Source: Bryopsis sp. KO-2023
Taxonomy: Eukaryota > Chlorophyta > Ulvophyceae > Bryopsidales > Bryopsidaceae
NCBI GenBank assembly: GCA_030272585.1
Contig: BSYQ01000009.1
Location: 1,116,001 to 1,180,000 of the forward strand
Reading direction: 5' to 3'
DNA: 64,000 nt
Shown: in pieces, positions 3,001-61,291 of the stretch
Position numbering within the stretch: position 1 is the first letter of the stretch
How the letters are laid out: each line of letters starts with the position of its first letter
Notes under the pieces: model-generated
Told to the model about the DNA's origin: nothing
Databases searched by the model: none
What the model saw: the letters and a program-made list of their open reading frames with translations, nothing else
Position numbers and translations under genes: made by a program

Positions 3001-4298
3001 TCCGATCTAACTGGGAGGTTGGAAGATTTGAGTCTGACTTGGGGTGATTTGTGCGGATCCGATGGGGGTAACGAAAGGAATGGTGTCGAGGTGGGGGGCT
3101 ATCTATGTGGGTGTCGATGTTTGAGGTCTCTGCGGATGGAAAACTATCCTGGGACGGCTGATATGGTGAGCATCACTGATCAAGGTTTTTCTTCCAGCAA
3201 TGATGATTTACACCTGTTGAATTGAAATTTGTTTTTTACACATAAAGGTCCAGTGCAGCCCGTTCACGGAAATGTGTCCTAGGCTGACTCAGAAAGAAAC
3301 CACCGTATCATCACAATGTCCATATCTGAAAGCTCTCTATCCCTTGCCCCCACATATATATTGTCTTCTTATTTATCTTTTTTTTTGGGGGGGGGGGGAG
3401 AGGTGAACAAAAAGGTAAAGTGAGTGGGATGCACAATGGATGTGGGGAAATCGTTGCTGTCAAAACCGTACAGATTCACGTATTGCTGCACAGGTTGCTC
3501 ATGCAATCAGCTGTTTGGGGAATCCTCTGACCTGTTTGAGTCTGTCTGGGAGCAACATCACCGATGAAGGCCTGAAGTATCTAATACATGCCAACATCCA
3601 CGTCAGACAAATAGATCTTTCATGCTGCAATAGCATTTCGTCTGAGGGGCTGGTGGAGACTGTCAAAGCGATCGGACAGTATTGGCAGGTATTTTATTCT
3701 TCTTTTCTGAACTGTTGCTTTTTTTTTTTTGCTTTTTTTTCCCTGGTGGCCCTTTGTCATCATCTCAACTATCAGAAACAGTTTGTGTGTTTGGTAACAT
3801 TATCTGTAAAATACAGTTATGTAATTTTACATTAAAAAAAAAGAAACCCAGCCAACTTTTTTTTAAAGATTTAAAAAGCGAGAAATAATATTGGACTTTC
3901 TTCTTGAATTTTTTTTTCTTGTTTTCTTTTCTCAAGTGGAAAGAGTGTTTTCTTTTTCTCTGACTCTTGCAACTCTTTTTGAATCTTATCGATGCACGCG
4001 GTGAGCAAGAAACTCAGCATCTTGTTTTAATTTTAATTTTCTTTTCCCTCTTCTCTTTTGAATCCAGGAGGTAAATTTTTCTAAAGTGACGGCAGTATCA
4101 GACGAGGTCATTGATGCAATTTTGGATACATGCCACGAAATAGAGTATCTGAATATCGGGATGCCACCTGATGCTCGATCCAGAATCACGGGAAGTGGTG
4201 TCAGAAGATTGAGGGCAGCCGTGCACTCTCGATATTTCAAAGTGGAGCGCATGTCCGGAACTCCGCGGGCAAAATCGTTGGATTGGAGGCGGCATTAA
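1..4298 (+). CDS. F-box/LRR protein, 5'-partial, 10 exons
   Basis: This is a likely substrate adaptor of an SCF ubiquitin ligase. Exons read as <1..98, 273..352, 594..844, 1145..1293, 1512..1655, 2067..2192, 2443..2560, 2912..3184, 3474..3688 and 4068..4298, and all junction phases agree. The first exon carries an F-box-like helix (PPELADHALSFFTILDIARF, frame 2). The later exons carry cysteine-containing leucine-rich repeats of the AMN1/FBXL type, for example LESLGLVQCHGCSDD, LTCLSLSGSNITDEGLKYL and IRQIDLSCCNSISSEGL-like units. The protein ends in ...KSLDWRRH before a TAA. The exon 8 donor is chosen at GATCAAG|GTTTTT, because the earlier GTGAGC would break the frame into exon 9. The 5' end and start codon lie outside the window. 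The F-box/LRR fold is seen directly; the SCF role is inferred from the family and no substrate can be named. Confidence 0.8.
3248..3332 (+). repeat. Dispersed repeat copy 1 (intron 8 of F-box/LRR gene)
   Basis: An 85-bp block that includes GCAGCCCGTTCACGGAAATG, then a CTGACTCAGAAAGAAAC stretch and ATCATCACAATGTCCATATC. It recurs with high similarity at 9498-9599 and 37904-38016, always in + orientation. No terminal inverted repeats were seen. Confidence 0.75.
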
Positions 4299-7008: not shown

Positions 7009-10000
7009 ATGGATCCTCCGCAAGACAAAGTGCGATCACGAATGTTGAATGAAGCAGATGAAAACAACAGCAATGTCTAAGGATACCAGTGTGTGTGCCT
7101 GTTCCTGTTCACCTTTTGGGTGTTCTTTCTTGTGGTTTAGTTGTTTTTTTGAGTCAATGATTTGACCTCCAGGGACAAGTGGCATATTGGTCGGTGTTTC
7201 TTCTGGGAGCAGGGGTCCTGGCTCCATGGAATTCGTTCATAACTGCTGTGGATTATTTTGAGGCAGTCTATCCGGTTGGTGAACGCAATTCAACACACAT
7301 CTGAATGCAATCTGCATCCTTGATGTGAGATCTCTGCTCATTGTGTGGTTACTTTTGTTCATATACGTATACGTATACAGGTATTTTTTTGTTTGTTTAT
7401 TTTGGGGTTTACAGATGCATCAATCCCTTATTCATAAGTGCAACTCTCCGTTGTTAAAAAATGTCGAACGAAACAAGAAAAAAAAACCTCTACTCCCTGA
7501 AGTAATCCTTGATTTGTACGTTCCATCATAAATTTCCTGCCTGTTGATCATCAGTAGTATTTTTCAATCCTTTGTTTTTCACATAAATCTATGTACATGT
7601 TATTCATATTTTCTGTTGTTTAATGTTTTTTGGGGGAGGGTAGGAGTGAAAATAATTGCATCAAGAAACTAGATGAATGGATGTCCATGTTATGTTTCGT
7701 TTTCTGCAACTCTCTCTTCGATATAGTAAAATCATGGGTGCTTTGACCAGGGGAGCCACATGGACAGAAAATTCTCGGTGTTGTATATGCCTGCGATGCT
7801 GGTGACCTTGTCCATCATGGTTGTCTGGAACAAACTTTTCAGTCTCACCGCCAGAGTTCGGGTTGGACTCTCAGCATTCACCGTAATTCTGATCCTCGTC
7901 CCAATCGTAAGCACTCCCCAAAAGAAAAAAATATTTGCGCGAAGAAATATTAAATCAGCTGGAATCCCCATATTTGTTTCTTTTGCATAATCGCTCATGT
8001 CACATGCAGTGTAATAAGTCGGGAATAAACTGTCAGGATTTTTTCCGGCTTGCTTTTTGCATTTTTCTTGTATTAATGGTCCTGCTTGTCTGGGTTTTTT
8101 TGGAATTACAATGGAAACGTCACATTGGCTCCGCAGAATTGAGTTATTGTTGATTGATTGATTTGTTGCTATCTTGTGCTGCATTTTTCTGTTTAATAGA
8201 TCGATGCTATTTTTGTCCATGGGGTGAAAGCCTCTCCAGCTGCACAAATCATAACGTTGGCTGGGTTGTTTCTCGTTGGAGTTTTCGATGGAGTCTGTCA
8301 AGGGGCAGTCATTGCGGAGTCTGCCTATCTCCCGGGACTCTACCAGCAGGTCAGCAGCCCATAATCAATCCAACACAGCACACTGCTATTGTTTATTGAC
8401 ACACTCCATCACAACAAATAGCTCAAATAGTTCTCGACCAAGACTTGAGGAATTTTGTGGGAAAGGATGTGCTCCCTTTTTTCCTTTTTTTATATGTATA
8501 AATATATATGGTTGTTCATAGTGTTTGATTGGGGCATCGAATGCCATTCAAAGAAGAATAACTGAACCAGATCACACACTGAAGAGTGCCTGCGTGTCTC
8601 TCTTCCTTGAATGCTATACCTATGATTTCTTTTAGTAATTTTTATCGCTGTTTTACAGGCATACACATCTGGGACTGCGGCCTCAGGTCTGCTCATCAGT
8701 TTTCTCAGAATCGCCACGAAACTTGCTCTGCCGGACACCACCAAGGGGCTTCGAGTCAGCACCACCATTTATTTCCTCACTTCAGCCATGATTTGCTTTG
8801 CATGCTTGATGATTCACTCCAAAATCCTCCCCACCCTGCCCTTCGTCAAGTTTTACAAGGAGAAAGCCGATCGAGCGGACCAAGGTTGGAACGGCATGTG
8901 TCAGACTGAACAGCCCGTCGATGCGTTTCTCTGGGAAGAGGTCCTTGGAAATCGTAGAAGGAATAAAAACATGGTCGAGTTGCATTCCAGTCAGACCTGC
9001 TTGTTGAGGATTCCCTCGAATGCAAAAGGAGCTGGTGATGCTCTTGTGTTACGGCAGCTTGACTGCGAATGCTCCCCTGCCTGTATATTTTCTGGGGTGG
9101 ATTTTTCCTTAAAGTTTCTTCTTTCTGTGCCGACCAACAGATCAAAAGGGGATTTCATTTACTGAAAATGATGGAGACAATGGAATCGAGGCCGACGACG
9201 TGGGGTTGGTGTCGAAATCCCGGAAAGGAAGAGACTACGTTCAAGTCACGCGCAAGATGCTCCACCCGGTCATCGCTTTGATGATGATGTACCTCGTCAC
9301 TTTGACCATATTTCCGGGGGTGCCTGCAGAAGACGTCCACGTGAGTTCGCACTCCATTCGCAGCCAAAAAATGCTATTCTCCCTGGTGGCTCAGGGCAAG
9401 TTTGAGAAACCTAGTGGGGTGGATCATCCGGTTTATATATATATGTGTGTGTAGATTTAAGGCCATATTTTTTGAATCGAAAATTGTTCTACACAAGGTG
9501 AAAAGTCGAATGCAGCCCGTTCACGGAAATGTGTAAAAGGATGACTCAGAAAGAAACGACCGTATCATCACAATGTCCATATCTAAAAGCCCCAAAGGTA
9601 AACCAGGAAGAAACTGATTCGGGAACCTCCAGGAAAATCGCTGACCTAAGGCCCTGTGCATTGATGTGTGTTTTTGTGGTGATTGTGCTAGTCGAAAGTC
9701 CTGGGGGATTGGTACGGCATTTTGCTGATCACCATTTACAACATTGCGGATTTTGTCGGTAAATACATGCCAGCATACACCCCCGCGATTCAAAAAGGCT
9801 GGGTGCTGACAATGGCGACTGCAAGCCGGCTGTTGTTTCTGCCGATCTTTTTGCTGGCGATGAAATTCAGCCCTATTCCGGTCCTCCTCTTCTTCTTGGT
9901 GTTCGCTTTGGGCTTGACAAACGGGTGAGTCATTTGTGGTGGGAAAATATGTACAGGGTTGAAGATCCATCCATGCCCAAATGCTCATAGGTTTTCTTCT

Positions 10001-17525: not shown

Positions 17526-18062
17526 AATATCACTGTCTTCAATAGTTTTCTTTCAACGAAACTCGCTCGCAATAATTCATACTGCCAGCGCTCAGGTTCC
17601 TTTTTGTGGCAACTGAACCTCAACACGTCCGTGTGGAACACGGATCGGTTGTCAGACAGAAGCCGCTGTCACGGGACGTCATTGCAAGCAACATATTCGA
17701 TTGGGTATCCCAGAGGTTAGCCCCTATGTCTCACTGTCTTCCAATTCATGAGTATCAGGTGGTCAGGAACTCTCACGGCTGAGAAAGGCTGGACCGGCTG
17801 GACCGGCTGGACCGGCTGGACCGGATGGACCGGATGAAGTCACCCAACGAGACAGAAGGAGTGCCCTGCTATATCTGCAGCTAGCAGTGTCTCGTTTGAC
17901 GCGTACAAGAATTAAATCGCGCTGGAAAAGTCTTGCAGGCGACAACGCCACGTGTGCACAACATTTTTCCCGAGTGTACCCGTCGCCAATTGCCATTTGC
18001 AAATGGAACCTTGTCTAAAGTGGCGTTCCACCCACAGAATAACTCCAGAAGGGTGGAAAAAT
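17526..18062. promoter_or_regulatory. Argonaute 5' flank
   Basis: These 537 bp between the Argonaute start codon (transcribed leftward) and the left end of the Ngaro element must hold the Argonaute 5' leader and at least the proximal promoter. No TATA-like motif is obvious. It contains the 9-bp minisatellite listed separately. Confidence 0.4.
17789..17836. repeat. 9-bp minisatellite
   Basis: Four tandem copies of CTGGACCGG plus one ATGGACCGG and a partial unit, about 265-310 bp upstream of the Argonaute ATG. On the minus strand it reads as repeated Gly-Pro-Ala/Ser, but no gene is supported. Confidence 0.9.
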
Positions 18063-18213
18063 AATGTTATTTACCTTAGTAAATGAGTTTATGTTCAGAA
18101 TCGAAGGGTGGGACAGTTTTTGGGATCTGGGGCTAGACTGGTGATCTTACAAGGTAAGATCACCACAAACAGTTCTTAAGGAGAGCTAGCTCTCCTATTT
18201 TCACTTTCGTTTC
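18063..18213 (+). repeat. Ngaro-like element repeat A1
   Basis: Left terminal copy of the A repeat, identical to 22224..22374. It contains a short palindrome (TGATCTTAC...GTAAGATCA) and the dyad GGAGAGCTAGCTCTCC. Confidence 0.95.
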
Positions 18214-18276
18214 TTTCGCTCATACTTCGCGAAGAAGCACCTAGCCTCGCGCTAGCGCCTACACGGCGGACTCTAT

Positions 18277-18948
18277 ATGGATCAAGAGCTGTTCCAAGCC
18301 TTAGGGCATCTGTTGTCACGCGACTTATCTCACTACTCCCAGGCGGAAGTAGCCAGTTTTTTCGTCCGCACACCGGACGCTATTCGACATCTGACCGAGA
18401 ACCCAGTTTCCCGACCACCCGACACCAGGCTCGGCTCTTTCTTTCCGATCGAGCAGACCGTACAAGGTTTACAACTTGTAAACCGGTTGGGACCAGGCTC
18501 CTTTTCCTCTGAACTACGGACGTGGGCTCCAGTGGTTAGCTCTCTGTTCGACACGACGGCGGGGTTACTCGCGATCCTGTGTTGTGGCGAAACTCCTCCC
18601 ATTATCCGTGCCGTCCTCGGACCATACGTCTTGTCGAACTATAAGACGTTGTGCCTCGCTGTGGATAGCTTCGACGTCCTCAAGCTTCGTGCAGACTGCC
18701 AAGACACACATCCAGGCGCCTGGAAGTTACTACAGGAAAAGATCAGGCTGGGTCACACCGCCAACCAGTTTTCGAGTTCCCTCACGGTCGAGACGCTCGA
18801 GTCGCTTTCAGCTGACTACCTCCGCAGCCTTTCCAAGAACTTGGGCAAGCAACGCGCGGAGCATCGAAAAGGAGGAGGAGGAGGAGGAGGGGGAGGCCGA
18901 CGTCCCCACCATCCGCCGTCCACCAAGCCCGCTGCAAAGCAGGAGTGA
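18277..18948 (+). CDS. Ngaro-like element ORF1, Gag-like
   Basis: The first open frame of the element, 223 residues, ending in a glycine-rich basic tail. It has no recognisable enzyme motif. By position and composition it is the putative nucleic-acid-binding Gag-like protein. Its stop codon overlaps the ATG of the next frame by one base, a layout compatible with coupled translation. Confidence 0.7.
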   Translation: MDQELFQALGHLLSRDLSHYSQAEVASFFVRTPDAIRHLTENPVSRPPDTRLGSFFPIEQTVQGLQLVNRLGPGSFSSELRTWAPVVSSLFDTTAGLLAILCCGETPPIIRAVLGPYVLSNYKTLCLAVDSFDVLKLRADCQDTHPGAWKLLQEKIRLGHTANQFSSSLTVETLESLSADYLRSLSKNLGKQRAEHRKGGGGGGGGGRRPHHPPSTKPAAKQE

Positions 18949-20987
18949 TGGATCCCGACTGGGATCCCTGGGCGCACTTGCGGGTACGTAAGCGGATCGC
19001 TGCCTGGCGTCGTATCGGGACCTCCCCTACAGTTTTGCGAACTATCCAGGAAGGTATACGAGTGCGTTTTCAGACGTACTGTCCGCCTTTCAAACGACTG
19101 CACAGTCGTTTGCGCACTACTGCAGATCGCGCAGAGTGGGCGAAGATCAGGGAGAAATATGTGGCGAAGGGAGCCATTTCACAGGTTCGGTCTGGAAGCG
19201 AAGTGACGCACGTCAGTCACGGTTTTCTGATCGACAAGAGGGACGAACAGGGAACAGTCTGTGGCAAACGCCTTTGCGTGGATCTCAGGCCGTTGAACGC
19301 CCACACTGGCGACTATTCCGTTCGTTACGAAACACTGGAGAGTGTTTCGCAGATTTTGCGACCTTCTGATTATATGATAAAATTCGATTTCGCGGATGCG
19401 TTCCACCATGTCGGCGTGCATGACGCATCGCGCAAAAATTTTGGGTTCTGTTTGGATGGGACGATTTACACCTCGAATTCGCTCCCATTCGGTTTTAAAG
19501 GGTCACCTCGCGAGTACTGCGAGCTGATTCAGAATTTCGTCAATTTTGTTCGTGATCCTTCGATTGTGGATCATTTGGATTCTCAGGGCCCCCGTGATTA
19601 CATTTATCAGTTTTGGGCCCGATACCGCTCTCGGGTTGATCGGGTGCGGTTATCTTGGTATTTAGATGATTTTTTAGCTTGCCATTCTGATCCTGGTGAG
19701 CTGGAGGTGTTTGGGGAATTGCTGCAGGGCTTGCTTTGGCAGTTGGGCTTAGAGTGTAAGTCCAGCAAATGTCACTGGCAGCCCTCTCAGGTGATGCAAC
19801 ACCTTGGATTGGTCATTGACACCAATCGGTCCCTGTTTATTTTACCTCCTCACAGGCTCAGGAAGGTTCGTCGTTTGGCCGCAGCCACCAGGGTCAAGGC
19901 GCTCCAAGGCCAGCGACGCATTCCAGCCAGGGATTTGGCTCGTTTCGCTGGCCTCGCGGCTTCGACAGCTCGAGCCGTACCAACAGCTCGCTTCCACCTC
20001 CGCGAGATTTACAAATGCCTGCAAGGTCGTCGTTCCTGGGCGGCTTTCGTCCAAGTGTCCCGCCTGGCCCTCCAGGCTCTTCGTTTCTGGGCCAACCTTA
20101 CCCCCTCCCAGAGCCAGCATTGCGTGTGGAGAATTCCCACTTCGGGCGTTTTGGCTACGGACGCGAGCACCTCGGGGTGGGGCGCGGAGCTCCATCTGCC
20201 AGAAACCCCTGGCTCGAGTTTGGTGAAGGCGTGTGCGGCGGGGTTTTGGAATTCCCGTCGACCGGTGCATATCAACGAGTTGGAGCTTCGCACGCTCCGC
20301 CTGGCGATTACCTATTTCCGGCACCAGCTCCAGAATCGTCACCTGACGCTTCTTACCGACAGTCAAGTCGTCGCGGGCATCCTTCGTCACCATGGTTCCA
20401 GGTCCACTCCCCTCCAAGCGGAGTACCGTCGGCTCTTCTTCCTCACGGAATCTCTGAACCTCAACCTCGAGGTTTCGTGGATCCCTTCCGAGCAGAACAC
20501 GATGCCCGATTACCTGTCGCGCCTGGAGAACGCCCAAGAGTTTCGGCTCCACCCCAGGATTTTCCAGCTGCTGGCCCAAGCGTTTACCTTGACGGTGGAC
20601 CGCTGCGCCAGCCTGGGGACGCGCCAGCTGGCGCGTTTCAACTCGCGCCATCGCGACCCGGGCACAGAGGCCGCGAACTGCTTCTCGGTCCCCCTCTCCC
20701 ACTGGCGTTTGGAGCGGAACTGGATCTTCCCGCCATTGGAGCTCATTCCTCGCATGGCGGACTTTCTCCTGACGACTTCTCCCCCACTTCCCTTCCTGCT
20801 GCTCCTGCCGAACTGGCCCCGTCGTTGGTGGCTCCCAGCGTTGACAGCCCGGTTCCCAGTCGTCCTGGAGCTTCCCCCTCATCCCCACAACCTGTGCCCG
20901 GGCAAATTCGGCGGCACAGTTCCCCCCCAAGCGTCGAGCTGGCCGTGGATTGTCTGCGGGAGTCTGACTGGCTCCCTGCCCTTGTGA
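18948..20987 (+). CDS. Ngaro-like element reverse transcriptase / RNase H
   Basis: A frame of about 680 residues. The reverse transcriptase part carries the conserved palm motifs, including YLDD, and the RNase H part carries its DAS, E and D-containing motifs and ends near a PDYLSR block. The domain order RT then RNase H matches the DIRS order. The 3' third overlaps the recombinase frame, as is usual for these elements. Confidence 0.92.
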   Translation: MDPDWDPWAHLRVRKRIAAWRRIGTSPTVLRTIQEGIRVRFQTYCPPFKRLHSRLRTTADRAEWAKIREKYVAKGAISQVRSGSEVTHVSHGFLIDKRDEQGTVCGKRLCVDLRPLNAHTGDYSVRYETLESVSQILRPSDYMIKFDFADAFHHVGVHDASRKNFGFCLDGTIYTSNSLPFGFKGSPREYCELIQNFVNFVRDPSIVDHLDSQGPRDYIYQFWARYRSRVDRVRLSWYLDDFLACHSDPGELEVFGELLQGLLWQLGLECKSSKCHWQPSQVMQHLGLVIDTNRSLFILPPHRLRKVRRLAAATRVKALQGQRRIPARDLARFAGLAASTARAVPTARFHLREIYKCLQGRRSWAAFVQVSRLALQALRFWANLTPSQSQHCVWRIPTSGVLATDASTSGWGAELHLPETPGSSLVKACAAGFWNSRRPVHINELELRTLRLAITYFRHQLQNRHLTLLTDSQVVAGILRHHGSRSTPLQAEYRRLFFLTESLNLNLEVSWIPSEQNTMPDYLSRLENAQEFRLHPRIFQLLAQAFTLTVDRCASLGTRQLARFNSRHRDPGTEAANCFSVPLSHWRLERNWIFPPLELIPRMADFLLTTSPPLPFLLLLPNWPRRWWLPALTARFPVVLELPPHPHNLCPGKFGGTVPPQASSWPWIVCGSLTGSLPL

Positions 20988-22033
20988 CCTCGGGGTTCGC
21001 CCCCTTTTGGTCCGACCTGGCGGACGACGTGGGCGCCCAGCGTGCCGCAGCTCTCCTCCATCAGCGTTTCGACGCCTTGGCGGATTCCTCCCAGAAAGGG
21101 CTGCAGGGCAAGTTCCTGCGTTTTGCGCTCTTCTGCCGGTCGGAAGGCTTCGTGTTGTTTCCCCCCTCGGAGCCGGTCATCTGTGCCTACATCCATGCGC
21201 TGCGAGAATCGGGTTCCGTCAGTGCAGCTTCTGCCCCCCAATATCTGGCGGCCATTTCAACAGTGAACCAGCTACTCGGTTTTGACGTCTCCGTGTTCTC
21301 ACCGATGGTTTCGTCGTTGCTGACGGGCTGGTCGAAACAGGTCGTCCGCGTCGACGCTGTTCGTGGGGTTCCAGCGGACGTTTTCCTGCAGGTGCTGGGT
21401 CACCTGACCCCAGACGTCGCCCTTTCGGTCTGGCGTGACTCTCTGCTTTCGTTTTCCCTCTTCCTGTTCTTCGGTCGCTCCTGCTCGGGCACTGGGGTCA
21501 CCATCACGGACCTGTATATCGAGGAGCCCGACAGTTTGTTTTTTCGAGAACGCTACACCAAGACCCCCAGGAATGGAGCCGCCGAACAGCGCCTCCGTCT
21601 GCGTTCCTTACCATGCCCCCAGCCGGTGCTCGACGTCTTTCGCTTCTATTTTCAGCAGCGACGAGTCGCATGGGAGCAGACGTCAGCTGACGACCCTCGC
21701 TTCCTCTGGTTATTACCTGATGACACCGCCTCCACTCCGTGCTCAGCTGTTTTCGTCCGGCGTTGCTTCAACGCGTTTGTGGCCCGCTTTCGCGACGTTT
21801 TTCCCGCGGGCGACTGGACCAGCCACGCACTCAGGAAAGGTGGAGCGACTGGCGCCCTGCTCGCAGGCGTGCCACTCTGGAAAATCCGTTCCTGGGGCAA
21901 CTGGGCCCCTCAATCCAAGGCCGTCTGGCGCTACCTGGATCTGAATGCGCCCTCCTCTCTGGGCGGCGACTCTTTGTTCGCGGGTCTCAAGTCGACCACC
22001 GCGGAGCTCGTTGTCGACTCCGCGCTCGCTTGA
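20015..22033 (+). CDS. Ngaro-like element tyrosine recombinase
   Basis: A frame of about 670 residues that overlaps the RT/RNase H frame at its 5' end, where it is proline-rich and may not be translated. The C-terminal third holds a tyrosine recombinase core with the HxxR block (HALRKGGATGALLAG) and the downstream tyrosine (AVWRYLDL). This enzyme replaces integrase in the DIRS order and acts through a circular DNA intermediate. Confidence 0.9.
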   Translation: MPARSSFLGGFRPSVPPGPPGSSFLGQPYPLPEPALRVENSHFGRFGYGREHLGVGRGAPSARNPWLEFGEGVCGGVLEFPSTGAYQRVGASHAPPGDYLFPAPAPESSPDASYRQSSRRGHPSSPWFQVHSPPSGVPSALLPHGISEPQPRGFVDPFRAEHDARLPVAPGERPRVSAPPQDFPAAGPSVYLDGGPLRQPGDAPAGAFQLAPSRPGHRGRELLLGPPLPLAFGAELDLPAIGAHSSHGGLSPDDFSPTSLPAAPAELAPSLVAPSVDSPVPSRPGASPSSPQPVPGQIRRHSSPPSVELAVDCLRESDWLPALVTSGFAPFWSDLADDVGAQRAAALLHQRFDALADSSQKGLQGKFLRFALFCRSEGFVLFPPSEPVICAYIHALRESGSVSAASAPQYLAAISTVNQLLGFDVSVFSPMVSSLLTGWSKQVVRVDAVRGVPADVFLQVLGHLTPDVALSVWRDSLLSFSLFLFFGRSCSGTGVTITDLYIEEPDSLFFRERYTKTPRNGAAEQRLRLRSLPCPQPVLDVFRFYFQQRRVAWEQTSADDPRFLWLLPDDTASTPCSAVFVRRCFNAFVARFRDVFPAGDWTSHALRKGGATGALLAGVPLWKIRSWGNWAPQSKAVWRYLDLNAPSSLGGDSLFAGLKSTTAELVVDSALA

Positions 22034-22141
22034 GCCCGTCTGCCCGTTTGGTTCGTCGGGGTCCCCTGTTTTTCGCTGATTTGTCATGGTTCGTAATGGT
22101 TTTGATTTTTTGGTTTTTTTGGGTTTTTGTTTTTTCTTTGG

Positions 22142-22228
22142 GGCAGTTTTCTGACTATTTGAATGTCAGCCCAGAGTGTTGTGAGTTAAGGTTCAAAGGG
22201 TGGGAACTGATTCCCAAATCATAAATGT
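22142..22228 (+). repeat. Ngaro-like element repeat B1
   Basis: 87-bp B repeat, identical to 22487..22573, and overlapping the start of A2 by five bases. Confidence 0.95.
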
Positions 22229-22374
22229 TATTTACCTTAGTAAATGAGTTTATGTTCAGAATCGAAGGGTGGGACAGTTTTTGGGATCTGGGGCTAGACT
22301 GGTGATCTTACAAGGTAAGATCACCACAAACAGTTCTTAAGGAGAGCTAGCTCTCCTATTTTCACTTTCGTTTC
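22224..22374 (+). repeat. Ngaro-like element repeat A2
   Basis: Internal copy of the A repeat, identical over 151 bp to A1 at the left end. Confidence 0.95.
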
Positions 22375-22486
22375 CCCTCCCACCCGGCCCTTTTCTTTGT
22401 TTTTTGTTCGGTGGATCAAGTGATGGGATTGGATAATATTGGGACAATTATTGATCTGTATGGAGTTCTGACCTTTGGTGTAAGAA

Positions 22487-22573
22487 GGCAGTTTTCTGAC
22501 TATTTGAATGTCAGCCCAGAGTGTTGTGAGTTAAGGTTCAAAGGGTGGGAACTGATTCCCAAATCATAAATGT
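22487..22573 (+). repeat. Ngaro-like element repeat B2
   Basis: Right terminal copy of the B repeat. It defines the right end of the element. Confidence 0.95.
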
Positions 22574-23576
22574 AAGGAGAGACTGAATTCTCTGTTGCAC
22601 TGAAGCCAAGTCTGAAAGAAAAATCTTCCACCTTTCCCCAGTCAGAATCGTGTACACAGTGGCCAGTATTACAATTCACATTTCCAGAGACAGGTTTTAA
22701 AGTGGTTTGTATCTGGACACTGTTGTCTGACATTTACGGAGATGTTCTGCCGTGTAATTCACTGGTTTTTCAAGGGGGAGGATCTGTTTTGTGTTGACTG
22801 CAAGATAAAGAGGGCTGTTCCAGGAGGGCAGCTTGTGTCTGTTCTTGTGTAGGTAGGCCCAGAGGATTTGACTGCGCCAGTCGTAAATTTAAAAAATGTC
22901 CTGTGGGTTGTTGGGTTGGAGGGACCATGAACTTTACATTTCGCTGTCTGACGTGGTTTTTGGGCAAACGTAGAATGTGCACAAATGAACTGGTCCAACT
23001 GATCCTACCAAAAAAAGAACAAGAAACCCACCAGGACGCTTTGGAATCCTGGAAAATAAAAAGCCAGAGGGAAAAAGAAGGTTCGGATGGTTGTACAATC
23101 GTGTTTTACACTCAGTAGAGTTACACTGGCACTGCCAGAATCACAATGCAAGAGTACAGACACATTGTACAGATACAACCACTTGCCCCGCCCTCCCCAC
23201 AAAATCCCCTCATGTTGCCAAAGGAGAAGGTCAAAACCTCAAGCACCCAATCCATTCGTTACCCCGATCACTTCTCCTTAAGTAACTTGCCTTCCCATAA
23301 CTCACTTCCGCACTATCAATTGATGAAAAAAAAAAACACCCCCTCCCTTTTCCAGGGACAAAAAAAAATGAAAAGAAAAACGCTTGTCCCTCCGACCATA
23401 TTTCCAAATCCCCTCTCTTCTCCCAACACGTTGTAGGTTAGGAAACGAAAAAGAAAAAAAAAAAGATTGTGATTATTAGGATCAGTTTCTTTGCATAGTT
23501 CATAGCTAATCACCAAGGTAGCTCTGAAAAACCCATACCACCAACCAGGTCCCAGGATCGAATCCCACTCTACGCA
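22574..23576. other. Spacer right of the Ngaro element
   Basis: About 1 kb with no supported gene. The part next to 23577 is probably the 3' untranslated region of the minus-strand coiled-coil gene. Confidence 0.4.
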
Positions 23577-27188: not shown

Positions 27189-30100
27189 GATGATTCCTCG
27201 CCCTCCGATTTTAAATCGCGAACTGGCGGAGCAAAATCCACCGGCTCCAAAGTAACGCAACCTCTGCGAGGTTTAACAAAGCCGACTCCGAAAAGGATGG
27301 CCGGTTTTCGACCAACGGTTAAGAGAAAACGCAAACCTCCAATAAGGGAACAAAATCAGGTCAGTCAGTGGAAGAGCAGAGAAATTATGCATTCATTTTT
27401 TTTAAAGGAAGAAAGCAGGGCTGGGACGGTTTGAATCGATCGAGGCATGGTTGGCTTATTCTAATCTTGAGGAAAGGTTGATGGTGTGGGCTTAATTTTG
27501 GGATTGACAATTGTTCAGAGAGGAGCTGTGGAAGTTGAAAGCAGTGGACCTCTAAAAAATGGGCTGGGAAAACCACCACCCCGTATGGATGCTGTTCGGA
27601 GGAAAGGTGAGCCTTTTTTTGTGGCATGCATGAAAAAGTCAGGCAAACATCCATCTCCGTTGAGGAAAGAATTGAAACAACTAGCAGTCAGAAGAATAAT
27701 GCACACCTGAACTTTTGTGGTACAGGATGATAAATCAACACTCGCCTGTATGAATAAAACTCAAGATAGAAAGGGTTGGAGCAATAACACTGTACTTTCC
27801 TGTCCGTGTCGGTCCAACAGCTCCAGGATCGATTTCAACATCTTCTCAAGAGGTGGAAACCCTCCCAAGCAAAAACAGGCAATCGCCAGGCAAAATCCCC
27901 AAGCAGCCCACCACACCAAAAGCTAGCACAAGCGATCCAGACTCCATGCCACCTCAATCAAAACCACCACAGCCTAACGCACCCCCGAGAAGTCAACCGA
28001 GTCGGTTTGGAAAAAAGGAAGTGGAGGAAAGGGCTCGGTCACTTCCTGATGAACCTTTGGCCACTCCAGTGAAACCTCCTGTCGAAAGACAGGAGGGAAA
28101 AAAGAAGGTACCGTCGATGGTGGAAGGTGGTGTGTCTTTGGGGGATCTCAGTCAATATCGACAGAGCGCTTTCGAGTTTGTGGAGGAGAAGCAGGGTGCT
28201 GATCCTAAAGGAAGTCAAACGGCGTCAAGGTCAACTTCTGGGCCCTCAGCCAGTTCCCAAGGAGTCCCTCCAGGTGTGTACGTTTATTGTACGTTGAATA
28301 ATGCCTTGCGTTATTCTCATCAACATAGGTTGTGGTGAATCTCAGTTCAGTGCTGGTGCCACCAACACAGCTTTCAATCGTTTTTCTTTTGTGAAGCAGT
28401 CGATCAATCTACATTGTCAAAGAAAAAAGACACCAGTTTGTCCCAACAGAGAAAAATGTAAAAAGTATATCTAAATATTCCCAATTATTATGTGTTTGTT
28501 TTAATTCTTCTGTTCAGAGATTAGTTGAAAGGAGCCCTAGCTGGGGTCCATTCACATTATTTTTTTTTTAAGCAGACTGAAATTGGTAAGGATTGTGCTA
28601 TATAAGATTTTGAAAACACTTCACGTGTGTGTTGCTCTGACCAGGATTCGACCCCAACAATCCGAAGATCCCTGATTTCGACATGTCAGATTTAGACCTG
28701 TCGAAAATCGATCAACAGGAAGTTAAAGAGGTTTTGGACGAAATGATGAACGAAGGCTACGAAGGGGAGGAGGCAGAAGACTTTTTTTCCAAGGATAATT
28801 ATTTCGCTTCCCAGGAGGAACTGGACAGAAGGAGCAACGCTTTCGATGCAGATTTTCCCCAGAATTTAGCTGAGGAGGAGCCGGCGCCGCCCCAGGAGAC
28901 TTCCGAGATGTCTGACATGCCGGAGGAGGACGATTCTCAAGGTTTCAATATGGATGAGCTGTTTGGGACGGAGAGTTTGGATGATATTTTGGAAAAGCTC
29001 AATGCTGCCACGGAAGAGGAGGGGGAGGAGGAGGGGGAAAGTGGGGCCAAACCATCCGAGAAAGCGGAAAATATCGAAGGTATTGATATCTAGGGAGGAA
29101 TTGGCTGAATGGTATAGGACACAGAGAGGATCCGTAGAATGGCCACGGAGAGGAGAATCAATCTTGATGCATAGGTTATTAGGGGTATATATATATATAT
29201 ATCTTGAAAGCCTATGCATTGCCAATATCTCACCAAAAAAAATGTGTCTTTGTGAACTGTTCAACTTTGTGCCCATTTGGATTCAAGAAAAATTTGCTGT
29301 ATCCTGATCAATGTTTGTCGAGGCTGGTCGGTGGATGTGGCGTGGTGTTTTTCATCTCGACCTTGGTTTTGCTGGTGGAACGCAGATGGAGATCCCAATG
29401 TCCAGCCAGAAATTGATCTGACGTTCACCGATGATGAGGCTCGGATGTTTGTGGAGAAGATGAAAAACGTGGACCTCAACGACCTCCTCGAGGTGAATTT
29501 CTTTTGCCTCCCAAAATCATATGCCATCTTTGCTCAAGACGAATTTTGGTTTTATTTTCACTTTTCGACCTTCCTGTTTTTCTGTCAATCTTTTTGGGAG
29601 ATAGATCGAAGGTATGCGTTCATGATGGAATGGTGTGCCTGACATATGCTCCGGGTGGTGGTTTTCGTTCAGGGTAAGAAAAACTTGATAGGGGAATTTG
29701 AAGACACTATTGGAAAGAGTCTCAAGGCCCCTGGATTCGAGGATGAGCTGTTTGAAAATCCTTTCGAGAGGCTCGTCTGGGAGATAGCTCATTATCTTTA
29801 CCCAAGAAAAGGCAAAAAAGTGAGTTGAGGGTAGGTGCTGTTTGGATTCGGGGTGATTTATCTAGCCAAAAAACAAGTTTGCAGTGTGGTTTTTTCTTAC
29901 TCAATCGAGGGGTCGTGTTTTTTCTTTCAGCCATCTGTTGGGTCTAATCTGCTCCATCTTTTCTTGCAACGGAATTTTCGTTTTGTTGTTCTCGTTGAAT
30001 TTTATGTTTTTGAATCCCTTGAAACAGACAAACCGTCAGAACTGGGCACACATGAATGTTTCGGAGGAAGTCAAAGAAAAACGCAGAAGGAAAAAATCCA

Positions 30101-31725
30101 AGGGTTTTGCGATTTGGCTGAGCATGGAAATCACCAAAGCTGCTAATGACGCAACCGGCCAGCTCCGAAAAGTCCAACATGGGTCGGAGGATGCAAAAAG
30201 TATCGTGGAGAAATGCATGCAAATGTTCATGGGATTTCTGAACGGACACACCAGCAAGCTCGCCTTGCGACATTTCTGTGCGTTGATTCAACGCTTTGCA
30301 TTGGTTGCCTCCAGGGGAGGCCTGCAAGAATGGATTTTGATGGTTTATCCATCTTTGTTTGTGACGCTGATAGCTGGGGTGAGGTCACGGGTGGAGGAGC
30401 TGGATGCTCGGCAAGTTTCCGAACTGGTTTGGGCTTTCGGAAAGCTGGGGCCGAAGGTTTTCGATGTGGAAGGCCAAGTCATGGAGCTGGACATCCTTCC
30501 GGACCGATCGGAGGTGAATGTCGGAGGGTTCTATGGGGACGTAATGAAACGAGCAACGGAAATCGCGGAAGATTTCGGCCCTAGGGATGTGGCTAACTTC
30601 GCATATGGAGTTTCGATAATGCCAGAGCGGTTTCAGAATGTCGGGTCGGTTGGGATATTGATAGATGCTTCTGCTGAGAAAGCGGAGGAATTCAATGCCC
30701 AAGACATGTCGAATTTGTGCTGGAGCATGGTGAAGCTGGGAATCGAGGACCGGAGCGGGATTATCGGAAAGCTGGTCAGACATGCAGAAACCAAGGTCCC
30801 CACGTTTAGGTGTCAGGGTTACTCCATGCTGGTGAAATCTCTGGGGCATATGGACCGAGAGGATTGCGAGAGCTTGCTGACCAGAATCGTCAACGAGCTG
30901 AAGTATCGAGATGGGTTGAAAAAATTCAAACCCAAGGAGCTGGCGAATTTCGCATGGGGATTGGCTAAGTTGAGGTATTACCCATCCGCCTGGTTCTTTG
31001 CTGCGGTGGAGGACGATTGCTTAGCTAAGCTTGATCAATTCAATGGGTCAACCACATGTGTGGTGTTGCTGGCTTTCGCCACTTGGGGTTCCGACAGCCC
31101 TCGGCTGACCTCAGCGTGCAAGGCAAAGCTCCTGTTCACCACAGACAGGTTGACCTCTCGAGATGTGGTGAATTCGGCTTGGTCGTTCGCGATGTTGGGG
31201 CTGCTGGATGAGGAGTACCTCAGTTTCTGTGTGGAGCAGCTGAACGGCATGAACTGCGAAGATATGAAAGCCCAGGAATTGAGGCAACTTCGGCAGTGTG
31301 CCATGGATGCTGCTATTTTTAGCCCGCAGTCGAAAGCTATGGACAAGCTGTCGAAAGAGTTGGTGAATGCAAGCAAAGCTGCCTGGGAGGAAGGCCAACT
31401 ATCGTACGAAACACCGAGCGAGGTCCAGGAAGCTCTGGAGTTACTCTCCAGCAGCGGGCTGAAGTGTGAATCCCGGACTTGGCTAAAAGACAAGGCGTTC
31501 CTGTCGAGTGTGGTGGAATTCGCTCCTGGGGTCGATTGCTTGATCGAAATGAAAGTCCCGGGGTGTAAGTTTCAAAACCAGCCGAATTTGTCGATCGGGA
31601 AGGTCAGGTGGAGAGAGAAGGTTCTGGCTTCGATGGGGTATTTTGTTCTACAGCTGGACCCCACGGTTTGGAATTCCTTAACTACGGATGAAGAAAAATT
31701 GCAATACTTGAAAAGCAAGATATGA
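27189..31725 (+). CDS. RAP-domain protein with OPR-like repeats and long disordered N-terminus
   Basis: This is a predicted organelle RNA-binding protein. Exons 27189..27359, 27519..27606, 27821..28273, 28645..29079, 29386..29492, 29673..29819 and 30028..31725 join in frame to at least 1,032 residues. The true start is not fixed: an upstream exon may exist, or MAGFRPTVKRKRKPP may be the start. The first 450 residues are low-complexity, basic and Pro/Ser-rich, then acidic (EEEGEEEGESGAKPSEK). The last exon carries OPR-like helical repeats, each with a core such as PRDVANFAYGVSIM, NAQDMSNLCWSMVKLG, PKELANFAWGLAKL or SRDVVNSAWSFAMLG. It ends with a RAP domain (VRWREKVLASMGYFVLQLDP...EKLQYLKSKI). 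Known RAP/OPR proteins act in chloroplast or mitochondrial RNA processing and translation. No transit peptide can be judged without the true start. Confidence 0.85.
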
Positions 31726-34522: not shown

Positions 34523-34770
34523 CTTGCCAGAATATAACTGGGTGTCTGGCAACTGGCTGGCAACGAAACCAAATTGAGAAAGGGACGATATACATATTCA
34601 AAAAATATTCAATATAGCAATAGCTATATTGATTGAGAAGTGGAATAGACCCCAGGTGTACAGCCATAGCGACCTACTCAAGTGTTACAAGATTTCAGAA
34701 TTCAGATTCCTTTCTCGATTTTTTTTGGGTTGCCAGCCCGTCGCCAGACCCCCAGTTATATTCTGGCAAC
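34523..34770. repeat. Imperfect foldback (63-bp arms, about 250 bp overall)
   Basis: The left arm, 34523..34585, includes TTGCCAGAATATAACTGGG. The right arm, 34708..34770, includes CCCAGTTATATTCTGGCAA. They are inverted copies with a few mismatches through GTTGCCAGCC and TTTCTCGATT-like segments. The 122-bp loop holds a second small palindrome, CAATATAGC-AATA-GCTATATTG, near 34609. It lies about 180 bp upstream of the second RAP gene's start codon. It could be a MITE, or a hairpin transcript precursor. Confidence 0.75.
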
Positions 34771-34950: not shown

Positions 34951-37277
34951 ATGTTTCGCTCTTGTGACAGCCTGAGGGCCATGTCGACGACCCCCCTCTC
35001 CTGGTTAAGTCAGCTGAGATGTCTCAGCGCTCTAGCTTTGGATTCTTTCCTTGTCGGCGGCGACTTGGGTGGCGTGCAAAGATTTCGCTGGCTTCGTCAG
35101 ATCTCGTCGATTTTCAGGAGAGAAGGAATAGGAGTGGCCTCGTTAAGCCATGATGGAGGCACGTTGATCCAGCGTGCCGTTTCTGCATCCCCTTGCTTCT
35201 TCGGGAGCGATCTAGGTCCGTCGCGAAGTTGCTGGACAGCTAATGGTGGAAAAACTAAGGTGTGACAGTGTGAAAGCTTTGGAGCAAACCGTTTTTATTT
35301 TTGTTTTCTTCAACCTGAGAGGATGAATGAAATGCAAAACATCCTTTGGATTCAAATCAGGAAAACTCATTTTATGTAAGAAGCCTTTTCTGGATTATCC
35401 CTATCCAGAATGGGGTCTATGTGATTTCTGATTTACATTCTTCAAGTTCCTTTTTTGATTTTTCTGTTTGTTTTTCAATTTCCCCTTTTTTTTTCTTGTA
35501 GGGGTGTGTTGAGCAAATCCGGTCGTTGTCTGATATTCCTTGCAGCGATCCTAGGGCGGGGCCTTTCCGTAAAGTCTCGAAACCTATCCCCAACATTTTC
35601 TTGACTATTAACGAACAGATAATGAATTCTGTAGCTGAGGGTTTCGAGGATTTGCGAATAAGGGACCCCAAAATCACGATGGAGGCCAAAGTGGATGCTC
35701 TGGTGGCCAAATACAAAGACATCATTCGAAAACACCGCCTGAGTTTCAATCACGTGAATGTCTCAACGCTGGTCCATAGAATAGGGAGGTTCATAGCGAG
35801 GTGCGAAATGCAGGATTATCTCTGTACAAGGCACTCCGATTTGGTGGCTGAACTTCTGGTGTTGGTGTACGCCCAGGCCGATAATTTTGCCAGTCGGAAT
35901 TTGGCCAACGTGATGTGGGGTTTGGGCAAAATCGGTCCCGGGTTGAAGGGCATCCCGGTTCCTCTCTTAACTTTTCAGCAACTAATGCAAAAGATGGGCG
36001 AGGCAGCCAAAGTTCAGTTCCAGATCAACACCTTTTCACACAGGCATTTGTCGAATTTTCTGTACGGGGCAGCTCGCCTGGAAGACACGACGTCGATGCG
36101 AGCCTTGATTTTACAGTTCGCTCGGCATGGGAAAACCATCGTGGACGATTTTCTGGATCAAGAATTGGCGAATTTCGTGTGGGCTCTGGCGAAGCTCAAC
36201 TACTTGGATAATCATGGGGTGCTGCCGGTGGTGGTGGAGTCTGCGAAAAAGCGAGTGGATACGATGGCTGCCCAAGAGGTGTCGAACATTCTGTGGGGGC
36301 TGGCGATGATGAATTATTACGATTGCGAGGAGCTGCTGGATGGATTGCTGATTCCGCAAACGCAGAGCAAATGGAGGAAAACCATGTCCTCCCAGTCGCT
36401 GTCGAATTTCGTGTGGAGTGCGCATTCGTTGCACATGAAGATCGACGAGGCTGAAGGATTGAGGTTATTGGACGGGTTGTTTTCTGGTCTGAAAGAAACG
36501 ATCCAGGAGACTCCATCTTACCACCTGGATGATTTCGATGCCCAGCATGTCACGTCATGTTTGTACGTGTACAGCGAATTCGGCTATAAATCCAAATGGG
36601 TGTTTGCTTTCGTGAGGGCGACGAAGGTGTATTTCGAACATTACAAAGATCGCTTCAACATGCAGGATATCTCGATGCTGGCCTGGTCGCTGGCCATGCT
36701 GGATGAGCTGGACGACAAAACGATGTCTGCGGTGTTACGTTTCGTCAGGTTTTCGAAACCAACTGATCCGCTGAAGCCTCAAGATGCTCGGCAGCTTTAT
36801 CAGTGCCTTCTGCATCTCAAGATATTCCACCCCGAAATCAAATTGACGGAAGACATTCCGGAAGCGGTGGAAGCTCTGTGGAGGCACAATTGGGTGGAAC
36901 GGCAGAAAACGTCCCCTTTGCCTGAATGGATGTCGGTGGCTTTGGTTTACTTGGAGCAAATGGGGTGCGTCTGCAAGGGTAGGAGCATGGTGGGTGGCAT
37001 CCTAAACACATGCACTCTGGATTTTGAGGATGGGTTGAAATTCGCGGTGGAGGGGCTCAGTTATGCACGGAGGTTTTATGGTGGGCTGTATCCGCCGAAA
37101 GCGAGGTTTCTTTGGAAGAGAAAGACGCTGGAGGCGCTGGGGTATGAAGTGATTGTGTTGGACGAACGAAAATGGGCTCTTCTTTCAGGCAAGGAAAACA
37201 CCCAAAAGTATCTGCAAGAAATGGTCGATGCTGCCAGAGCTAAAACGAGGTTGTCTATGCTGGGGACGAAAGCCTGA
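34951..37277 (+). CDS. RAP-domain protein with OPR-like repeats and organelle presequence
   Basis: This is a predicted organelle RNA-binding protein of 694 residues from two exons, 34951..35259 and 35502..37277, joined in phase 0. The start MFRSCDSLRAMSTTPLSWLS... is rich in Arg, Ser and Leu and poor in acidic residues for about 60 residues, as in mitochondrial or plastid presequences. A second ATG at 34981 is possible. About eight OPR-like repeats follow, with cores SRNLANVMWGLGKIG, SHRHLSNFLYGAARLE, DQELANFVWALAKLNY, AAQEVSNILWGLAMMNY, SSQSLSNFVWSAHSL, AQHVTSCLYVYSEFGY, MQDISMLAWSLAML and PQDARQLYQCLLHLK. The C-terminal RAP domain reads RFLWKRKTLEALGYEVIVLDE...NTQKYLQEM. It is similar in layout to the RAP gene 3 kb upstream, so the two may be old duplicates. 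The likely role is maturation, stability or translation of specific organelle transcripts; the target is unknown. Confidence 0.92.
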
Positions 37278-38881
37278 GCCAGACAGAGTTGGGAAAATGG
37301 TTAAAAAGAAAGAATTGATAGGGGGGGTGGGCTGGAGGGGCTGGCAGGGATCGAGCATTCTTGTCGTCTCCAGTAGTTAAGAAAATGTGGTTGATGTTAC
37401 AGGTGAATATGTATTGAATGAATCATTGCAGTTTGTGCTTGTTTTTTGGCTTGCTGTAATTGTATATTAATGGAAAGAAAAATCGTCAGTTTCAAACAAT
37501 CCATTGCAGCATTATGAAATGCCACATTGCACGTTTCTTTGGACATCATATATTGGTGGTCGTCGGATTTTTCGATCACCCTGACCAAACACTCCCTGAT
37601 ACCCCATCAGTTTCTTGCATGACAGTTCACCGACATTATCAATCTTGCCCCGTTTCACAGAGCAACAGTGTAGCAGAATGTATGTGTAATAACAAAAGTA
37701 AATATATTGTGGTATGTATAGTGGTGAAAATACACGAGCCTGTACCGACTGTTTATAATGAGCAATAAAGGAGCTATTTATGTGCTGGTTGGCATGAAGC
37801 ACTCTCATTCGACATGGATTTATCCATCATCTTGTACTTTTGGCAGAAGTTTCGTCCAGCACACCTTCTGATACCTCTTTGAAATTGAAATTGTTTTAAC
37901 ACATGGTCAAAAGGCCGAGTGCAGCCCATCCAAGGAAATGTGTTCTAGGCTGACTCAGAGAGAAACCACCTTATCATCATCACAATGTCCATATCTGGCT
38001 CGGTACCCCAAAGGTGAGACACCTCTACCATCTGTTTCAGTGTAGAATTAAGAAATTTATTTCTGAGTGTCTTCTGAATAAAAACGTTAAGAATCGTTTC
38101 CCCAAACATCAGCTATGTGCATGCTCCAACAGCTATTTCTTCCTTCCTTCCTGTCTTTCTTTCTTTATCAGACATTCGCATTGCATTGCATTTTTTAATT
38201 TTTTAAAGCATTTTCACAAGGTTTCCTTCTTTCGCCTTATAACCCCAAGCCAGCGGCAAAACCAATATAGCGATTTGACATGATCCAAAACAACATGATC
38301 TTTCAACTAGCAACAGCCGCTTCTGCTTGAGTACAGGGAGAAAGCCATTCCCCCATCAAATCAAGGATCAGTTTGAAATTAAATAAAATGAAGCTTCGAT
38401 AATCAGATCCATGAGGTGAAGCAAACGTCTAGTAGTTTTACACGAGAGCAGCACAATTATACTGCGTAAGTCAATCTTTTCTTCCCTTAAAAAACCGTGG
38501 AACAGCGGATTTTCCAAATGACACTTTTTTCCTTCCTGCAATTCTTTCTTTGCTTTTTTCCCCCTCTGCAATGATTGATATAAAAACTCCATCTCCACAA
38601 ACTAGCAATTGCCCATTCAAAAAAAAAAAGAACGAAAAGAAATAAAAAGGAAAGCCCTTAGGGTGAAGGACTCCATCTAGAAAGAAACCCACCGAACTGT
38701 AAATTGAGAATGGATGAAACGAAAACCCAGACGCATTTCAAATGTTATTTTTATAAAAACAAGAGGGGAAAAATAAAAAAGAATGCAAGAATTTGCCTAT
38801 AAACGATTGGCTACATCCCCCCGAAATGCTATCTAAGCAAAAAAAACGTGAGGGCAGAAAGGCCAAACCAGAAAAAGGCTT
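37278..38881. other. Convergent intergenic spacer
   Basis: 1.6 kb lie between the RAP gene and the acetyltransferase gene, with stop codons facing each other. It has an AATAAA-like signal near 37763 that could serve the RAP transcript, and dispersed repeat copy 3. No gene is seen. Confidence 0.5.
37904..38016 (+). repeat. Dispersed repeat copy 3 (intergenic)
   Basis: The longest copy. It reads GGTCAAAAGGCCGAGTGCAG, then a GGAAATGTGTTCTAGGCTGA stretch, ATCACAATGTCCATATCTGG and CCCCAAAGGTGAG. It differs from copies 1 and 2 by a few substitutions and a 3-base insertion in the ATC run. Confidence 0.75.
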
Positions 38882-51791: not shown

Positions 51792-51863
51792 GGGGATGTC
51801 CGGGAATCGAACTCGGGACCTCTCGCACCCGAAGCGAGAATCATACCACTAGACCAACATCCC
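51792..51863 (-). tRNA. tRNA-Pro (anticodon CGG)
   Basis: A 72-nt cloverleaf. The acceptor stem GGGATGT pairs with ACATCCC, and the discriminator is C. The D arm is TGGTCTAGTGGTATGA, the anticodon stem CTCGC/GCGAG with loop TTCGGGT (anticodon CGG), and the T arm has loop TTCGATT-type sequence GAGTTCGATTCCCGG. No intron. It decodes CCG. Confidence 0.95.
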
Positions 51864-51931
51864 ACACGACAAATATCTGAAAACAATAGTATAAGATCTA
51901 TTTCCTTGCCTAGAGCAGCAGCGGGTGAAAG

Positions 51932-52018
51932 TGCCCCGGACCAGGATCGAACTGGTGACCTCCGGATTGCTCAACTGTGTTATGAGACCGACGCGCTAAC
52001 CAACTGCGCCACCGAGGC
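51932..52018 (-). tRNA. Elongator tRNA-Met (CAT) with 13-nt intron
   Basis: An 87-nt gene. The acceptor stem GCCTCGG pairs with CCGGGGC (one G-U), discriminator A. The D arm is GCGCAGTTGGTTAGCGC, the anticodon loop CTCATA, then an intron of about 13 nt (ACACAGTTGAGCA) at the canonical position 37/38, then TCCGG. The T arm is ACCAG-TTCGATC-CTGGT. The TCTCATAA context and T-A-containing D loop fit the elongator, not the initiator. It is transcribed leftward, like the tRNA-Pro 68 bp away. Confidence 0.93.
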
Positions 52019-59717: not shown

Positions 59718-61291
59718 ATGGCGCTTGGACGTGTACCCTGGTTGCTTCTCTTGGTTATATTTGTCGACGCCCAAGATGATCTTCTTAAAAGCAAGAATCT
59801 TGTCAGCGTTACTGGTCCCGGCTTTGGTGGTATTGGAGCTCTCCCCAGTGTCGTGGGGGGTACTCCAGGTATCGGCGGGAACGGAGGGCCTATCACTGCT
59901 TTTACTCCCAGTGATTTCCCTCAGGTTGCCTCCCTCCGTGTTCGCAAAGGGTACAAGTCAAGTAGGCAGGTCGGCACGCATTTCTGTGGCGGCACTCTGA
60001 TCGCTCCAAACGTCATACTCACCGCCGCCCATTGCGTAGTTGTGGACAAAGGGAAAAATCCAGACGTGCACTTGGGCCGGGTGAATCGAGCGGGAGATGA
60101 TTCGGGGCGTTTTCAAGAATTCTCGGTCAAAGAGACGCGCATTCACCCCAAGTACGAAGAACGGGGTGGGTGGAAGAATAACGACCTCGCTTTGCTGGTG
60201 ATGGATAAGTCGGCGTCCGTCAAGCCAGCGATTCTGCCAAAAAATGACTGTGTGGAGCGAGGGAAATGCAAAACCGTCGTGACCGTCGGCTGGGGGCTGA
60301 CGGTGGCGGACAATCGACGATCGAACGCCGACGTGATTCAGAAAGTTGAAGTCCCCACCATGAAGAGGGCGGCATGCGACGCAGCCATGGATGAGGAGGT
60401 TACGGACGCTATGATTTGTGCAGGGGAGGAAGGAAAGGACGCATGTCAGAATGATTCCGGCGGGCCCCTGTTTTTCAAGGACAAAATCGTCGGGGTCGTG
60501 TCTTGGGGCGTCGGCTGCGGTGAAAAGGGGAAGCCCGGCGTCTATGCTTCCGTCCCCGCCATGTTCGACTGGATTCGAGGAGAACTCGACGATATTGCAG
60601 GGGTGCGACGTCGACGTCAACACTGCACACCACAATCAACAGTGTTGATACTCAGGGTGGTGAGGGTTTTTTTTCCTTATTTTTTCCTGCCCTCTGATCA
60701 ATCGCAATGTGTCATTCCAGGGAGCGACGAGCCCTCCTCCTCCAACCCCGAGTCCGACGCCGCCTCCTCCTCCTCCGCGACCACCTTTGCCCCTTCGTAG
60801 TAATTATCTCCAGTTTTTTTTTTCCTTTTCGAAAAAAAGCATCAAGTCTGAAATATATTTTTCGATGATGAAATTGAAAATGATAAGTTTGTGGTGAAAT
60901 TGAAAATCCTTTTTGTCTTTGTTCCAGCATCATAGAGGGTGATGGCTCTCTTTTGCTGTGGGTTGTAATTATGATTATGATGATGATGAAAATCATAATT
61001 TTGTGGTTTTGACAGGGTGCGGGTACGTACACGGAAAGTGGTTTCCTCCAGGCTGCCGAGGTATCAACATCAAATTCATCAAAACTCATAAAACCTCCAC
61101 ACAATCTCCATTGGTTTATTTCGTTTAAGTGGAGTTTTTGTCCTTGGATTTTGAAGGGGTTTTTTAGACAAAGTATGGGTCTTCCTTGATGTTGGATTCA
61201 GTATATCAAAATGATAAATTTGTGACTGGAAGTTTTTCCTTCCATATGCTCGTGTTTTCACTGGCTTTTTGTTTTTTTACGTTCAGATTAA
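59718..61291 (+). CDS. Secreted trypsin-like serine protease (S1) with Pro-rich tail
   Basis: Exon 1 (59718..60602, 295 residues) begins with a signal peptide (MALGRVPWLLLLVIFVDAQ) and encodes a full S1 domain. The catalytic residues are His105 (LTAAHC), Asp156 (NNDLALL) and Ser247 (NDSGGPL). The specificity-pocket residue is Asp241, so cleavage after Arg or Lys is expected. Two oddities: the residue two before the catalytic Ser is Asn245 instead of the usual Gly of the oxyanion hole, and the VVGGTP site is preceded by Ser, not Arg/Lys, and followed by a glycine-rich insertion. By phase, exon 2 (60721..60796) adds a Pro/Ser/Thr linker (SPPPPTPSPTPPPPPPRPP). Exon 3 (61016..61060) adds CGYVHGKWFPPGC, and a stop falls in exon 4 (61287..61291). 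Exons 2-4 are provisional; without them the protease would end soon after residue 295. Confidence 0.85.

Follow-up and report, generated by a model that had tools for sequence, protein, structure and literature searches.

Element boundaries and surrounding window

The window, the whole 64-kb stretch of DNA that was analysed, has a GC-content of 46%. Within it, two pairs of direct repeats, A and B, delimit positions 18063 to 22573 (4,511 bp by repeat scan); the pairs interleave and enclose three open reading frames (Table 1). The order is A1-genes-B1-A2-B2, with the internal repeats 3' of the recombinase. The first-pass annotation had given this order and these end points, and had judged both repeat pairs to be identical by eye; the repeat scan returned the same arrangement to the base and showed each pair to be identical along its full length.

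Table 1. Features of the repeat-bounded element (positions in the 64-kb window).
Feature	Position	Strand	Remarks
A1, left split direct repeat	18063-18213	+	151 bp; 151/151 identical to 22224-22374
ORF1, gag position	18277-18948	+	223 aa; no internal stop; role from position only
ORF2, reverse transcriptase and RNase H	18948-20987	+	RVT_1, RT_RNaseH; no internal stop
ORF3, tyrosine recombinase in 3' part (about 21071-21940)	20015-22033	+	5' part overlaps ORF2; no internal stop
B1, internal repeat	22142-22228	+	87 bp; 87/87 identical to 22487-22573
AATGT, presumed circle junction and crossover core	22224-22228	+	B1/A2 overlap; within TAAAT-GTT-ATTTA
A2, internal A copy	22224-22374	+	151 bp; 5-bp overlap with B1
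B2, right terminal repeat	22487-22573	+	87 bp; identical to B1

In a scan of the whole window (minimum 40 nt, seed 16), no direct-repeat family other than A and B had identical copies; chance does not produce perfect repeats this long in 64 kb. When the 5-bp B1/A2 overlap is counted in both pairs, none of the 238 compared positions differ, which sets an upper bound (95%) of 1.25% on divergence. No inverted repeats of at least 30 nt were found between 17000 and 24000, and at this length neither the inverted terminal repeats nor the internal complementary region of DIRS1-like elements is seen. Base composition changes along the element: the coding part has a GC-content of 57-61% and the repeats 40-41%, compared to 45.1% and 47.5% in the two 5-kb flanks. 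Searches of the window for further pieces of the element found none (tblastn E 0.1; blastn E 0.01).

The A repeat contains a hairpin with 12-bp arms (18139-18165) and a perfect palindrome with 9-bp arms (18179-18196). Together these account for a strong predicted fold as single-stranded DNA (z -4.34; none of 200 shuffles as good), and both may be candidate signals for the recombinase or for the RNA.

Elsewhere in the window, two ORFs on the forward strand about 4 kb apart (29884-31725 and 35526-37277) match RAP and FAST_1, the second RAP match falling just below the Pfam cut-off; they likely encode organelle RNA-binding factors. RAP genes are described as numerous in alveolates and green algae, and Plasmodiophora has many too (PMC8190603). 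Their presence is a weak hint that the host may be an alveolate or a chlorophyte; Chromera velia was among the species considered. A further ORF (59718-60800, +) matches the trypsin-family proteases (E 7e-50) and begins with a hydrophobic stretch resembling a signal peptide; the 10 window ORFs scanned also include one with an LRR match and one that matches muniscin weakly. Two tRNA genes adjoin on the reverse strand (51792-51863 and 51931-52018), of which the second was not named by ARAGORN and may hold an intron. A dispersed 90-nt repeat is present in three copies (3244-3333, 9501-9590 and 37910-37999), of which the latter two share 90% and 72% identity with the first copy, and a MITE-like inverted repeat (34524-34769) consists of 50-nt arms, 86% complementary, lying 146 nt apart.

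Coding content

All three frames run without an internal stop between the perfect repeats, which bears out the earlier description of the element as whole-looking. The position of ORF1 suggests a gag-like protein. Its C-terminus is glycine-rich and basic; inspection by eye revealed no CCHC zinc finger, and no homologue was found in Pfam, PHROGs or NCBIfam.

The ATG of ORF2 overlaps the ORF1 stop codon as TGATG. Reverse transcriptase (RVT_1, E 8.7e-12) and RNase H (RT_RNaseH, E 2.7e-6) are matched within this one ORF; the YLDD motif of the polymerase begins at 19659, and we take the D-E-D-D residues of the RNase H to lie in motifs starting at 20157, 20271, 20349 and 20502. Matches to solved structures are weak: 4ol8 'Reverse transcriptase/ribonuclease H' (E 6e-4), 7q5b Ty3-G (E 0.004) and, as a third of reverse transcriptase type, 8r0s 'Enzymatic polyprotein' (E 0.026), presumably that of a caulimovirus. 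Two ribosomal eL32 chains (E 0.018 and 0.028), taken as chance, score like this third match, and the solved-structure search therefore counts as weak support. At E 0.1, ORF2 matches nothing among phage records. AlphaFold models built without relatives are meaningless both for ORF2 (mean pLDDT 34.1) and for the recombinase part of ORF3 (35.9).

ORF3 lies downstream of pol on the same strand. At full length it has no Pfam match; Phage_integrase (PF00589) scores below cut-off (E 0.38 and 0.21), so the recombinase is divergent. Among PHROGs, ORF3 matches the PHROG_1 integrase (E 8.8e-4). Its 3' part (20975-22030, 352 aa) matches a single record among phage records, a Vibrio phage 'DNA breaking-rejoining enzyme' (BLASTP, E 2e-5, 20.8% identity over 80% of the length), and in that alignment the positions of the Arg (GRS/LRS), the Lys (TKT), the His-x-x-Arg and a Trp coincide. 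A Tyr follows the Trp after 10 residues in ORF3 and after nine in the phage protein, as seen by eye beyond the end of the BLASTP alignment; in a MAFFT alignment the two are not lined up. A plasmid search turned up only a site-specific integrase, matched weakly (E 0.04). Neither a DDE integrase nor an aspartic protease was matched in the three ORFs (Pfam, NCBIfam).

Overlap of ORF2 and ORF3

From 19820 on, 1,165 nt ahead of the end of the last ORF2 codon, the ORF3 frame stays open; the overlap measures 970-1165 nt. Codon scores over this region favour ORF2 in six of eight blocks, while in the remaining two (20120-20269 and 20870-20984) ORF3 scores slightly above ORF2. As a null model, ORF2 codons were shuffled synonymously 5,000 times and stops counted in the ORF3 frame. 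With the next base kept, the mean was 5.8 stops compared to zero observed (zero being reached in two shuffles), and with the next base free it was 10.7 (zero reached in none), for a stretch that had itself been picked for being open. Upstream of the overlap the ORF3 frame holds 11 stops against shuffle means of 14.5 and 17.8, with 488 and 60 of the 5,000 shuffles as low.

The only ATGs in the ORF3 frame are at 20015 and 21305. Since the latter falls inside the recombinase homology, which starts near 21071, translation of the recombinase probably begins at 20015 or is reached through a -1 shift from ORF2; splicing or an unusual start codon may provide other routes. A -1 shift from ORF2 into ORF3 would be in register at two CCCGGGC heptamers (20657 and 20897). 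The motif is outside the best-known slippery type, and as candidate frameshift sites the heptamers are a lead only. For a shift from ORF1 into ORF2 no slippery heptamer was found.

Ends, flanks and a model of integration

The pentanucleotide AATGT stands at the start of A1 (18063-18067), at the B1/A2 junction and at the end of B2 (22569-22573); at the junction it sits in a small palindrome (22222-22234). Beyond the shared AATGT, the next 3 to 8 bases of the flanks hold no target-site duplication, and the flanks are otherwise unlike.

DIRS1 elements are described as integrating from a circle, which recombines where a few bases are identical and leaves no target-site duplication (PMC3266345). 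If this statement is extended from DIRS1-like elements to Ngaro, then AATGT ends without further duplication are what circle integration would be expected to leave. The model of reverse transcription for Ngaro and PAT has A1/A2 and B1/B2 nearly identical at insertion (PMC6681497), and the anatomy of the element fits both models. Under these, the RNA of the element would be copied within gag-like particles by the reverse transcriptase/RNase H. The internal B1A2 would act as a template that joins the missing outer ends into a circle with the junction ...AAATGTTATTT..., and the recombinase would then cross the AATGT core of the circle with a matching few bases of the chromosome. Such a crossover would leave a single copy of the core at each end of the element.

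The absence of any difference at the 238 positions, with divergence below 1.25%, points to an insertion of recent date, unless the repeats have been evened out by gene conversion or in assembly. Identical repeats are read in the same way in PMC6681497, and the earlier claim that the element is young is to this extent upheld.

Some likeness between flanks and repeats was also noted. The 8-mers AAGGGTGG in the left flank (18049-18056) and AAGGAGAG in the right (22574-22581) both recur inside the A repeat. An 8-mer common to each flank and A or B was matched by 64-67 of 5,000 random flank pairs; the full count of 8-mers shared with A or B (three left, one right) was reached by 28 of 5,000. The left flank resembles the end of B, a likeness equalled in 13 of 2,000 shuffles and by 59 of about 5,000 random 40-mers of the window (draws from the element skipped). 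The right flank has no likeness to the start of A, with 1,775 of 2,000 shuffles scoring as well. These likenesses were sought post hoc, after inspection of the sequence, and are no evidence on their own. A more specific proposition, that this is an intact Ngaro of an alveolate (a chromerid, for example) whose recombinase is made only by way of the dual-coding overlap and picks chromosomal sites that resemble the A repeat, as the left and right 8-mers do, we consider rather improbable.

Classification

Ngaro elements are defined in the sources consulted by the arrangement A1-[ORFs]-B1A2B2, by gag-like, reverse transcriptase/RNase H and tyrosine recombinase products, the last in place of a DDE integrase, and by the lack of a methyltransferase (PMC8547959, PMC3783388, PMC4157794, PMC9210276). 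Structure and coding content fit this definition: the element is very probably a complete-looking, recently inserted tyrosine-recombinase retrotransposon of Ngaro type. The type proposed at first pass is supported by the repeats, the reverse transcriptase/RNase H, the recombinase, the lack of a detected methyltransferase and the agreement with published definitions; DIRS1 is excluded by the split direct repeats. Against the placement stand the recombinase, with its score below the Pfam cut-off and its single matching phage record, and the long ORF2/ORF3 overlap, since overlaps of ORFs are stated not to be usual in Ngaro and Viper (PMC3266345); elsewhere, the ORFs of tyrosine-recombinase elements are said to be able to overlap (PMC3783388).

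An alternative is a PAT-like element of the DIRS branch that has lost its methyltransferase or carries it in degraded form. Split direct repeats are common to PAT, Ngaro and VIPER (PMC4157794, PMC6681497), and loss or degradation of the methyltransferase has been proposed for a lineage of Caenorhabditis briggsae (PMC4157794). The stretch of ORF2 that follows the RNase H is where a Dam-type methyltransferase was sought. No Dam match was found there in Pfam; the best match, a PCIF1 domain (0.28), was taken as chance. Compared to six Dam segments by hhalign, the stretch gave P 0.65, which lies within what 10 shuffles gave (0.11-0.96); a held-out Dam, run as a positive control, was recovered at 96% probability (2e-9). 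No methyltransferase family of any kind was matched by Pfam in the ORFs of the element, and judged by this absence of matches it has no detectable Dam domain. The same stretch, about 160 aa long, presumably resembles the extension of DIRS-order pol proteins, which speaks for PAT; against it, the internal repeats lie 3' of the recombinase, as they do in Ngaro (a position compatible with the echinoderm form of PAT as well), and no zinc finger is seen in ORF1. With no methyltransferase detected PAT is disfavoured, and we regard this origin as unlikely.

A VIPER/TATE-like element outside the kinetoplastids is very unlikely. The VIPER elements of T. cruzi and C. fasciculata share the repeat order (PMC6681497), but VIPER is described as known from kinetoplastids only (PMC9210276, PMC3783388). 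With its long stretches of non-coding DNA and host ORFs that are short, the window gives an impression unlike that of a trypanosomatid. In VIPER, moreover, the recombinase precedes the reverse transcriptase/RNase H, which is opposite to the order in the element; it is host range together with this gene order that disfavours VIPER.

Hardly credible is either a Gypsy-like LTR retrotransposon with odd repeats, for which the best solved reverse transcriptase/RNase H matches are of Ty3 type but which is at odds with the encoded recombinase, with the lack of a DDE integrase or aspartic protease match and with the absence of paired LTRs and of a target-site duplication, or an assembly artefact, for misassembly can yield perfect repeats but random duplication would not interleave B1 and A2 with a 5-bp overlap and set the same 5 bp at the outer ends.

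Comparison with known elements

Read as a Ngaro, the element is close in plan to those of the bicosoecid Cafeteria burkhardae as described in PMC8547959. Both have A1-[ORFs]-B1A2B2, an ORF1 that is gag-like in Cafeteria and at the gag position here, reverse transcriptase (PF00078) and RNase H in ORF2, and a recombinase with HxxR and Tyr in ORF3, and both are GC-rich compared to the DNA around them (virophage DNA in Cafeteria). The Cafeteria elements, however, are typically about 6 kb long and many lie in virophage elements, whereas the present one measures 4.5 kb and lies among host-type ORFs (10 scanned); its recombinase also differs in falling below the PF00589 cut-off. DIRS-53_XT of Xenopus tropicalis (PMC9210276) likewise has repeat pairs that are 100% identical (236 and 152 bp, compared to 151 and 87 bp here), reverse transcriptase/RNase H and tyrosine recombinase without a methyltransferase, and overlapping frames; Xenopus elements also encode, according to the same source, an SGNH hydrolase in a fourth ORF, and neither such an ORF nor the domain was found here. 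SymbioDIRS-Dnmt3 of Symbiodinium (PMC5890265) shares A-coding-B-A-B repeats and a tyrosine recombinase, but carries in pol a cytosine methyltransferase, of which none was matched in the element. In the brown alga Ectocarpus, which can be set beside the element by description only, Ngaro comprises 15 families and 3,893 copies, 689 of them intact, an example of its being common in some protist lineages (PMC12477816).

Searches for relatives gave no confirmed case. Pattern searches of viral contigs returned one stretch with ORF2, none with the reverse transcriptase part and two with the recombinase part, and a search of genome contigs with ORF2 returned 75. Two consensus DNA patterns, used in three scans, gave four, zero and three loci. 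All seven were taken as chance, there being no ORF2 or ORF3 tblastn match on them better than E 0.59; the best tblastn match of any ORF was that of ORF1 on one locus (L004; 37 aa, E 0.02-0.04). The words 'DIRS' and 'Ngaro' are absent from the main text of the Chromera velia genome paper, the transposable-element table of which is in its supplement (PMC4501334).

Implications

Besides animals and fungi, the reported hosts of Ngaro include a brown alga (PMC12477816) and a bicosoecid flagellate (PMC8547959). With hosts so varied, the element alone does not place its own; at first pass it had been expected to help do so. The Ngaro type is already established; the element adds a tidy example and no new type, and leaves the general picture unchanged. 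For a group with a patchy record, an apparently whole and recent Ngaro would add a usable reference, and the defined AATGT junction together with the dual-coding overlap would make both target choice and expression of the tyrosine recombinase testable.
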